A DNA stretch of 64,000 nt from Struthio camelus (lineage: Eukaryota > Chordata > Aves > Struthioniformes > Struthionidae). The stretch lies in contig NC_090968.1 of assembly GCF_040807025.1 (NCBI RefSeq), forward strand, positions 7,057,906-7,121,905, written 5' to 3'. The notes beneath the pieces are model-generated. The model had not been told where the DNA came from. It made no database searches and worked only from the letters and a program-made list of their open reading frames with translations. This document shows positions 21,565 to 30,731 of this stretch, piece by piece; positions within the stretch are counted from its first letter, which is position 1; the number at the start of each line of letters is the position of its first letter. A program made the position numbers and the translations under genes.

Positions 21565-24500
21565 GTGGCGCCGGAAGAGCCTCTGCAGCAGGCTGCGCTT
21601 GGGGGGCTCGGGCAGCTGCTGCCAGTCCAGGTCCGGGGAGCGGGTCCCGTTCGGTCCAAACACGTTGAGGTCCTTGAAGCACTCCGTCTCGATCATCTGG
21701 AGCGGGGAGAGAGGGCAGGGCTCACCGGAGGCCGCGACCGAGACGGCGGCCCCGGGGGTTTGCCCTCCCCTTACCTCGTTCTGCCAGGGGATGGAGACGC
21801 TGCCGGTGGCAAACTTGGCGTAGAAGTCGTCGTCGGTTTGGTCCAGGTTGACGCCTTTCACCGTCGAGAACTGCTCGATGTCCAGCACGTCCTTGCAATA
21901 CACGGCCCGGGGCTGCGGGACCCGAAACAGCCGTTCGCCGGGCGACGCGGGATCACCACCCCCGCGGCCGCCCCCCTGCCCCACGCCTTACGTCCGGCAC
22001 GAACGACGGCTTCGTGACCCCGGCCTCCAGGCGCTTGAAGTTGATGGTCCTGAAGAAGGGATGTCGCTTCACCTCGGCTGCCCCGTCCGCCCCGCAGCCC
22101 AGCCGCTGCTTGGGGTCCTTGGTCAGGAGCTGGGGAGGGGACGGGGGCGCACGGTCACGGCGGGAGGAGAGGGGCTGCGCCCCCACGGCGAGGAGCTGGG
22201 CACGAGGAGACGCCCCGGCCCTGCCCCTGGACTCACCACCTTGCAGATGGCCCTGGCGTCCTGGCTGAACTTGTCCGAGTACTGCTCCTGGTCCTCCCGC
22301 ACCCGCTTCTCCACCTCCTCGCGCTTCACCCGCTCCTTGCGGGCGCGGAAGGGCGACTGCCCCTCGATCATCTCGTACACCAGGCAGCCCAGGCCCCACC
22401 AGTCGGGGCTGAAGGTGTAGCGCTCGTTGTTAATCACCTCCGGGGCTGCGAGCGAGAGCCCCAAACCCGTCAGGGCCGCGCACCACCCGCCCAGCCCTCC
22501 CGCGGCCGGGCTGAGGCTGCAGAGACCCCCGAGGCCAGCCCCGCCGGCGCTGCCCCCGCACTCACCCATGTAGCCGACCGTGCCCACGCGGCCCCGGATG
22601 CTCTCGCCCTCGGGGATCTTGATAGCCAGCCCCAGGTCGGAGATCCTGATGTGGCCTGCGGCAGGGCGGCGGGTTGGAGGGCCCCTATCCCAGGGATGTC
22701 ACCCCCCACCGTGCTCCTCACGCGCTCCCCAAAACACAGCCAGGAGCCCTGCATCACCTCTGCTTGCTCCACAGCCTGCCCCGCGCAACGGCCCAGCCCG
22801 GGCACAGCCCCCCGGCCGGGGACACACGGGGAGGGGGCGCGCGGAGACCGACTCCGGAGCCAGGACGGCTCCCGCGGGCACGGCTCCTCTCCTCACCGTC
22901 ATCGTCCAGCAGGATGTTCTCCGGCTTCAGGTCCCTGCGGGGAGAGACGCGCGCCCGGCTCAGCACGGAGCGGCCCAGCCCGGCACCCCGCCGGCCGCGC
23001 GCCCGCGCCGCCCTCACCTGTACACGATGCCCTCCTGGTGCAGGTGCTGCAGGCCGCAGCAGATCTCCGCCGCGTAGAAGACCACGCGCTCGTCCTCGAA
23101 GCCGGGGTTGCCCATGTTGTAGATGTGGAACTTCAGGTCCCCGCCGTTCATGATGGTGAGCACCAGGCAGAGCGCGTCCTTCGTCTCGTAGGCGTAGGCC
23201 AGGCTCACCTGCATCGGCACAGCGCCGGTCGGCCCCGCGGACCGGCTCCTTCGCGCCCCGCCGCCGAGCTGGGGAGCGCAGCACTCACCACGAACCGGCT
23301 GTTGACCTTCTCCAGGATCTGTTTCTCGTTCAGGGCCATGGCCTCCCCTTTCCGCTTCTTGATCCGCTTCTTCTCCAGCTTCTTGCAGGCATACATCTTC
23401 CCCGTGGCCCGCACCTGGCAGGCACACACCTGGGGCGCGGGCAGCGGGGTGAGCGGGCAGCGGGGCCGGCACCGTGGCGGCACAGCCTCTGCCAGCCCCG
23501 GGGCCTCCGCGGCAGCGCCGTCCTACCTCTCCGAAGCCCCCTTTGCCCAGGATCCTGTACTGCCGAAACGTGTCCTTGGTGACCGACTGCCTGAAACGCA
23601 CGACCGCGGGCACGTCAGCCCCGGCTCCGCGCTGGCGCTGAGCCCCCGCCCGCCCGCGCTCACCTTTCCAGGTACTTCCACTGCAGGAACCGGTCGAAAT
23701 ACATGCTGTCCAGGTAGTCGGAGAAGGGGGCCCGGCTCAGGTACTCATGCAGAGGGCTGCGGGGGGAAAGGGACCGTCAGCGTCGCCCCGGAGGGACGCT
23801 CGCCTTGCGGCGGCAGGGGTGCGGCAGGGCAGGGCGCTCACTGCAGGCAGCTGCTGAAGAGGTCTTTGCAGGGGCTTTTCTGCAGGTTCTCCGCGCACTG
23901 GCTGATGTAGCTCCGGCTGATCTCAGGCAGGTAATCCGGGGACTGCGGCGAAGGAGAGACGGGCAGCGAGATAGAGGCGTGAGCCAAACCCTGCCGCCTG
24001 TGCCCACGGTTGCTGCAGCGCTCCCGGGTGACTCCCCACCAGCCAGCCCGGCGCGCCCCGGTGCCGCAGCCCGGCTCCGCGGGCAGCCCACGGTCCCAGC
24101 TCCCGGGGTGCCCGCGCCAGCGTGCACCAGGGAGCCCCGGGAGCAAGGATGCAGCTTCGTGCACCCTGCACCACCCCGGCCCCATCCCGTCCTACCCTGT
24201 CCCGGTCCAGCTGCCTAGGGGGATAAACGTCCCCCAGACGCACCTGCTGGTTGAAGAACCTGCAGATGATCTCCTCGCCCATCTCCTTGCGCTTCTCATC
24301 CGGGGAGAGCTCGTAGTCCGCCTGGGGGGACAGGGGAGGAGGCTGTTACAGACAGGCAGCGCCGGGCCAGCCCGCCTCGGCTCTTCCCCACGCGCCAGCG
24401 AGGCAGCTTTTCCTGAAACGTCTCCCACCCGACTCAGAGAGGAGTTTGCCAAGAGAGCAAAAGGTGGGAGCTGACTGCTGTCTCCCTGCCCCAGCCTCGC

Positions 24501-30500: not shown

Positions 30501-30731
30501 GAGCCAGCATGGGGGACCAGGAGAAAGACCAGGGCAAGGAGCTGGGACAAGGATGGGGACACGGAGCCGGGATGGACAACTGGAACAGGGACCAACACGA
30601 GGAGCTGGGACGGGGATGGGGTCACGGAGCTGGTGGGGGGGCGGGATGGGGAGGCGGATGCAGGACGGGGCGGCGGTACCTTCGCGGGCCTTGAGCAGGA
30701 CGGTGTTGGCCACGATGTTCTCCAGCTCCAT
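21565..30731 (-). CDS. GRK4/5/6-subfamily G protein-coupled receptor kinase, fourth paralog
   Basis: GRKs phosphorylate active GPCRs so that arrestin binds and signalling stops. Fifteen minus-strand exons join in frame to 558 codons: 30680-30731, 25947-26042, 25525-25637, 24244-24321, 23842-23942, 23664-23756, 23527-23590, 23289-23429, 23018-23208, 22897-22934, 22566-22655, 22237-22445, 21992-22129, 21775-21912, 21565-21696. The N-terminus [18 protein letters not shown] and the basic [10 protein letters not shown] segment mark the GRK4/5/6 group. An RGS-homology domain flanks the kinase. Glycine loop 193-198, Lys215, Asp311 and DLG 329-331 are intact at GRK5 numbering. The amphipathic LLQRLFRR helix is at 550-557. 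The sequence mixes GRK5-like segments ([21 protein letters not shown]) with GRK6-like ones (CKKLEKK, FSPDWW, DLDW). Exons 5-15 are packed into 2.4 kb with tiny introns. It appears functional. The last exon is unresolved. Confidence 0.93.
29925..30665. repeat. 63-bp minisatellite with 126-bp dimer in GRK intron 1
   Basis: Purine-rich plus-strand array. The core GGGATGGGGACACGGAGCCA recurs at 30147, 30210, 30273 and 30336 with an exact 63-bp period. Alternate copies carry ACAAGGAGCTGGGACA or GCGAGAAGCTGGGATA, giving a 126-bp dimeric unit. Both ends are degenerate. The unit is divisible by three, so it produces long spurious open frames on both strands. The right edge is about 15 bp from exon 1. 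Confidence 0.92.

Follow-up and report, generated by a model that had tools for sequence, protein, structure and literature searches.

A conserved GRK4-subfamily kinase gene in the FGFR1 block of Struthio camelus, very probably a fourth ohnolog

A receptor kinase gene between STAR and LSM1

We analysed a 64,000-nucleotide stretch of the Struthio camelus genome (C27:7057906-7121905, NC_090968.1; hereafter the window), which belongs to an assembly of 1.45 Gb in 262 contigs and contains no Ns. On its minus strand (30731-21565) lies a gene of the G protein-coupled receptor kinase (GRK) type with 15 coding exons, all 14 introns bounded by GT...AG and a frame open over 1674 bases (558 amino acids). 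The gene is real, intact and conserved, and it is a member of the GRK4 subfamily. It very probably represents the fourth ohnolog left by the two rounds of whole-genome duplication (2R). The exons, followed by the two flanking genes, are as follows.

30680-30731, minus strand: coding exon 1, receptor-binding N-terminal helix; donor gtaccg, by eye weaker than the other donors
25947-26042, minus strand: coding exon 2, basic patch and beginning of the RGS-homology domain
25525-25637, minus strand: coding exon 3, RGS-homology domain
24244-24321, minus strand: coding exon 4, RGS-homology domain; with exon 5 one of the two most diverged exons
23842-23942, minus strand: coding exon 5, RGS-homology domain; with exon 4 one of the two most diverged exons
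23664-23756, minus strand: coding exon 6, linker from the RGS-homology domain to the kinase
23527-23590, minus strand: coding exon 7, Gly-rich loop GKGGFGEV, first residue 193
23289-23429, minus strand: coding exon 8, catalytic Lys215; 47 whole codons identical to GRK6
23018-23208, minus strand: coding exon 9, kinase domain
22897-22934, minus strand: coding exon 10, catalytic loop RDLKPEN with Asp311
22566-22655, minus strand: coding exon 11, DLG 329-331
22237-22445, minus strand: coding exon 12, APE motif; basic stretch from residue 388
21992-22129, minus strand: coding exon 13, end of the kinase domain and beginning of the C-terminal extension
21775-21912, minus strand: coding exon 14, C-terminal extension of the kinase
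21565-21696, minus strand: coding exon 15, LLQRLFRR segment near the end, then splice donor CAC|GTAAGA
21190-21462, minus strand: putative exon 16, 90-residue tail and TAA stop, from the acceptor score and the open frame; low to moderate confidence
14661-17662, minus strand: STAR, downstream neighbour, placed by tblastn within the window
33662-39532, minus strand: LSM1, upstream neighbour, placed by tblastn within the window in four pieces at 82-91%

A preliminary description of this locus spoke of a complete, in-frame receptor kinase between STAR and LSM1. The open frame and the position, the latter from tblastn with human STAR and LSM1 sequences, were borne out; completeness was not, as the 558-residue model ends at a splice donor. 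Among the open frames listed for the window we also recognised peptides that we take to be those of ASH2L (~10.4-11.7 kb), BAG4 (BAG domain at ~45.2-45.7 kb) and DDHD2 (~52-61 kb). Apart from the additional kinase, the gene order is that of human 8p11.

The gene contains or adjoins three GC-rich tandem arrays. Intron 1 has a 63/126-base minisatellite (30124-30480, 97% matches for the 126-base unit), and there are arrays of 29/66/95-base units upstream (30984-31333) and of 16-34-base units downstream (20250-20668). Such arrays may be why loci of this kind drop out of older assemblies.

Domains, catalytic residues and constraint

The product contains an RGS domain (residues 53-170, 91 bits) and a Pkinase domain (187-448, 233 bits), both past the Pfam cut-off. 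Its matches in the PDB ranked in the order GRK5 (1025 bits, over residues 1-557), GRK6 (977), GRK4 (890), GRK1 (553) and GRK2 (326). Compared by eye, 14 of 14 splice junctions stand in the same place and phase as those of GRK6 in the same genome, likewise all the junctions read in GRK5. Because of the strength of the GRK5 match and these common junctions, chance is excluded as the source of the gene. The catalytic residues were found exactly as numbered in the preliminary description, at the GRK5 positions Lys215, Asp311 and DLG 329-331. At the N-terminus stand the conserved helix, then glycines, then a basic patch that includes G, S and W, an arrangement described in PMC3307776. Near the C-terminus, an amphipathic segment aligns at the sequence level with GLLQRLFKR of GRK5, its helix being predicted.

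The candidate keeps 270 of the 282 alignment columns (95.7%) that are invariant over seven GRK4, GRK5 and GRK6 sequences. The same leave-one-clade-out test, applied to those seven sequences, gave 86.3-94.5% of 293-322 columns, and the candidate therefore looks constrained. Divergence is greatest in exons 4 and 5 (30-48% identity), and exon 8 is among the least diverged (94-100%). GC content is 63% over the coding sequence, 94% at its third codon positions and 69-71% in the blocks from 20 to 32 kb of the window. A pseudogene was considered and is ruled out by the open 15-exon frame, the GT/AG introns and the invariant residues kept.

Residues that separate the known members were also compared, at 64 sites fixed within and different among the GRK4, GRK5 and GRK6 clades. 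The candidate agrees with GRK5 at 36 of these, with GRK4 at 32 and with GRK6 at 29, and with none at nine; a residue common to one clade alone is found at two sites for GRK5, three for GRK6 and eight for GRK4. These counts uphold the mixture of GRK5-like and GRK6-like signatures claimed earlier, and such a mosaic is the expectation for a separate branch.

A putative sixteenth exon

The 558-residue model stops at CAC|GTAAGA, a splice donor, without an in-frame stop codon; reading on (GTA AGA ...) leads to TAA at 21192-21190. The identical codon boundary bears a phase-0 donor in GRK5 and GRK6 of this genome, GRK4 has a donor near the matching place, and GRK5 has a separate tail exon, its 16th (C7:7192417-7192524). 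Because of the GRK5 and GRK6 donors and the GRK5 tail exon, a 16th exon is to be expected in the candidate too. The 558-residue product is thus ruled out as complete, by its own stop-less donor and by the two donors at the same boundary.

Acceptors were scored with a position weight matrix built on the gene’s own 14 acceptors, at 199 AG sites down to STAR. The site at 21462 ranked first (11.4, runner-up 9.7; real acceptors scored 0.2 to 14.0 when left out one at a time), and would give a last intron of 102 bases, nine of the 14 known introns having 73 to 120 bases. This best-acceptor model (splice from 21565 to 21462) codes for 648 amino acids, and for 682 with the intron retained and the same end. 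The putative intron (21564-21463) is open in frame and its length is a multiple of three, hence the spliced and retained forms would have a common C-terminus.

Tails of GRK4 and GRK6 carry palmitoylated cysteines, and GRK5 has a tail type of its own. The predicted tail contains cysteines. In similarity to the GRK6A tail it ranked 30th among 187 candidate exon starts (shuffle p 0.68), and in similarity to the GRK5 tail 86th; no GRK5-type tail exon was recognised by similarity among those 187 starts. This GC-rich stretch has many long open frames, 48 of 201 AG-started frames reaching 90 codons. As the tail is unlike those of GRK6A and GRK5 and such frames are frequent, the model of exon 16 stays putative. 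In GRK6 of the same genome, exon 16 was not found in the stretch examined.

Nine poly-A hexamers were searched for between 21570 and 17600 on the minus strand, and none was present. A short AT-rich island at ~19950-20150 on that strand, within GC-rich sequence, contains TGTAAATA, TGTAAACA and TGTACATT, and with these Pumilio-type motifs it looks like the end of a 3' untranslated region. The kinase message could end in this island.

Other GRK loci and phylogeny

With the candidate as query, exon series were found on C7, C4, C13, C9 and C204 in addition to its own locus, and no second copy of the candidate was among the best-scoring matches of this genome search. Comparison with human GRK5 and PDB searches identified these loci as GRK5 (C7), GRK4 (C4), GRK6 (C13) and GRK1 (C204), and so separate GRK4, GRK5 and GRK6 loci are present in the same assembly, as the preliminary description had anticipated. 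The C9 gene groups with bovine GRK1 (99.6/98) and has GRK5 as its best PDB matches, with no GRK7 among them; it is probably GRK7, a name given by exclusion. For GRK6, coding exons 1 to 15 were all read from the locus; for GRK4 and GRK5 the same exons were read apart from exon 10.

A ten-sequence tree (LG+G4) comprised the candidate, human and bovine GRK5, human GRK6 and GRK4, bird GRK5, GRK6 and GRK4, and an outgroup of bird GRK7 and partial bovine GRK1. Human, bovine and bird GRK5 formed one clade (100/100), human and bird GRK6 another (100/100) and human and bird GRK4 a third (94/97), with the candidate outside all three. In an eight-sequence tree without the outgroup (JTT+G4) each clade had 100/100 support and again excluded the candidate. 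Identity to the candidate was 77-78% for GRK5, 72-74% for GRK6 and 69-73% for GRK4, and between human and bird orthologs 91%, 87% and 77%, respectively.

Eight topologies were compared by the approximately unbiased (AU) test. The three that nest the candidate within a known GRK were all rejected (p = 2e-7, 1e-70 and 7e-15), which agrees with the trees and with the earlier proposal of a branch of its own. Neither of the two outcomes that the preliminary description had named as fatal to its reading, nesting inside GRK4, GRK5 or GRK6 or the lack of another copy of one of them, was observed. All five deep placements passed, two with GRK5 (0.80 and 0.40), one with GRK6 (0.23), one with GRK4 (0.07) and one basal (0.15); the pairing with GRK4 was excluded by the bootstrap proportion from resampled estimated log-likelihoods (bp-RELL) and by expected likelihood weights (c-ELW). 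Support for the deep nodes was weak (65/34 and 77/50 with the outgroup, 66/72 without). Since the nested placements are rejected and deep ones retained, the candidate split off before the common ancestor of mammals and birds.

A GRK near each of the four FGFR loci

On each of C27 (7.207-7.210 Mb), C7 (6.221-6.231 Mb), C4 (78.231-78.238 Mb) and C13 (9.893-9.895 Mb) we found six FGFR kinase pieces, and other tyrosine kinases matched the FGFR query less completely than these four loci. The names FGFR1 to FGFR4, and those of the other paralogs, were assigned by block and identity. TACC_C marks three of the blocks (C27 at 7.311 Mb, C7 and C4), as does the NSD-type AWS domain (C27 at 7.144 Mb, C13 and C4); a fourth, weaker AWS match on C30 we take to belong to another family, not NSD.

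The candidate lies 0.12 Mb from its FGFR, GRK5 0.96 Mb, GRK4 1.39 Mb and GRK6 0.16 Mb, on four chromosomes. When the loci were placed at random (uniformly, 2,000,000 times), no trial brought every one of the four GRKs to within 1.4 Mb of an FGFR of its own, a limit chosen after the gaps had been seen. Together with the separate branch, the presence of one GRK beside each of the four FGFR loci supports the earlier reading of this gene as a fourth ohnolog in the FGFR1 block. Counted by eye, C7 was nearer to the FGFR1 query than C4 and C13 were at four of the six pieces, a weak hint on pairing that agrees with the best tree, in which the candidate stands beside GRK5.

A separate observation concerns contigs C40 (70.4 Mb) and C41 (89.9 Mb), whose kinase matches are collinear at four places over a span of ~49.5 Mb. 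At about 14-15 Mb of C40 the order is inverted, and a 900-base sample showed 100% identity. The two contigs resemble the sex chromosomes W and Z sharing a pseudoautosomal region of very large size, which would point to a ratite-type bird.

Origin of the gene

Because each of the four GRK loci is at most 1.4 Mb from its own FGFR, the best explanation of the gene is a fourth 2R ohnolog. It would encode a functional receptor kinase, kept here and lost in several other lineages. We consider this very likely to be correct. Three points weigh against it. The GRK5 pairing is the best placement, but GRK6, GRK4 and basal placements also pass the AU test. The tree consists of mammal and bird sequences, so that it sets the split before the mammal-bird ancestor and gives no 2R date; that date rests on synteny and the mammal-bird tree. 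Finally, the putative C-terminal tail, a part that aids membrane binding in the subfamily, resembles no known GRK tail.

A duplicate made within the bird lineage, or a translocated copy of GRK5, GRK6 or GRK4, would account for the great overall similarity to GRK5 (1025 bits) and for an exon 8 identical to that of GRK6 over 47 whole codons. All three genes are, however, elsewhere in the assembly and the nested placements are rejected at the AU values given above; furthermore, a recent copy of GRK5 would far exceed 78% identity to bird GRK5, because human and bird GRK5 share 91%. Separate loci, identities and AU rejection together rule out a recent copy or translocation, and we regard any origin of this kind as barely credible. 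An older small-scale duplication, before the mammal-bird split and for example of GRK5, could have landed in the FGFR1 block by chance without being a 2R ohnolog. The AU test does not settle the deep pairing and the tree covers amniotes only, which leaves room for such an event; on the other hand, the candidate is 0.12 Mb from FGFR1, with the other three GRKs each beside their own FGFR, and excerpts of PMC9141715 state a conserved place beside star outside human, mouse and chicken. We think this improbable, though it is the most serious of the rival accounts.

Compatible with an ohnolog origin would be a gene that looks intact and is dying in this lineage. Its last exon is only putative and excerpts of PMC9141715 report it as absent in chicken, but 1674 coding bases without a stop or frameshift, 14 GT/AG introns and the retention of 270 of 282 invariant residues make decay very unlikely.

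If the fourth ohnolog is functional, it would by analogy work like other GRK4-subfamily kinases. The basic N-terminal patch and the C-terminal amphipathic segment would hold the kinase at the plasma membrane, where its N-terminal helix would recognise agonist-occupied receptors. Phosphorylation of those receptors would then allow arrestin to bind and signalling to stop.

Comparison with known systems

A fourth GRK4-subfamily gene is partly foreshadowed in print. PMC9141715, in the excerpts available, shows a ‘grk5’ beside star, with lsm1 and bag4, that is absent in human, mouse and chicken, from a comparison of human, mouse, chicken, frog, spotted gar, tongue sole, zebrafish, medaka, stickleback and fugu, with flounder taken from NCBI. 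It was the one paper on this locus that the literature search brought up. PMC3307776 counts three members of the GRK4 subfamily in vertebrates and traces a second, fast-evolving GRK5 of zebrafish and pufferfish (‘GRK5C’) to the teleost duplication. PMC5795056 treats GRK1 and GRK7, and PMC5020398 names zebrafish Grk5l as the closest homolog of GRK5. The literature also mentions a ‘GRK5-like’ of snapping turtle and another of tongue sole, either of which may or may not belong with the candidate. The gene is not known from mammals; for human and mouse its absence is reported in PMC9141715. In a literature search that left most subscription journals outside, the star-adjacent kinase was nowhere called a fourth ohnolog and no ‘GRK8’ was met with, nor was a paper found joining GRK4, GRK5, GRK6 and ohnolog. 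The gene may already be present in genome annotations, named as GRK5-like.

Existing papers, as far as their excerpts go, give vertebrates or mammals three GRK4-subfamily kinases, and a fourth completes the quartet of the FGFR paralogon. Being intact in a bird while human, mouse and chicken are reported to lack it, the gene is a clear example of a signalling kinase lost in particular lineages. Jawed vertebrates may at first have had four GRK4-subfamily kinases, for eight classical GRKs, with the star-adjacent ‘grk5’ (of frog or fishes) and teleost GRK5C both being the fourth ohnolog; we judge the case for and against this to be evenly balanced. If true, the kinase studied in fish as a ‘GRK5’ duplicate may be one that humans lack. 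If the star-adjacent fish gene is the same, some fish ‘GRK5’ genes need renaming and the carry-over of results to human GRK5 needs to be rechecked.

Among characterised kinases, GRK5 (human, bovine and bird) resembles the candidate in domain order, residue numbering, the junctions read, 77-78% identity and the basic stretch at 388, yet the candidate has its own branch and locus and shares a GRK5-only residue at just two of the 64 diagnostic sites. GRK6 (human and bird) is 72-74% identical, with exon 8 the same over its whole codons and 14 of 14 junctions in common, whereas the candidate branches separately and GRK6 adjoins FGFR4 and NSD1. Teleost GRK5C, in the excerpts of PMC3307776, is likewise a second, separately branching GRK5-like kinase; it differs in being fast-evolving and in the teleost duplication given as its origin. 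The ‘grk5’ of PMC9141715 has the same neighbours as the candidate, star, lsm1 and bag4; in those excerpts it is named grk5 and appears only as a neighbour, and its orthology with the candidate is proposed from position.

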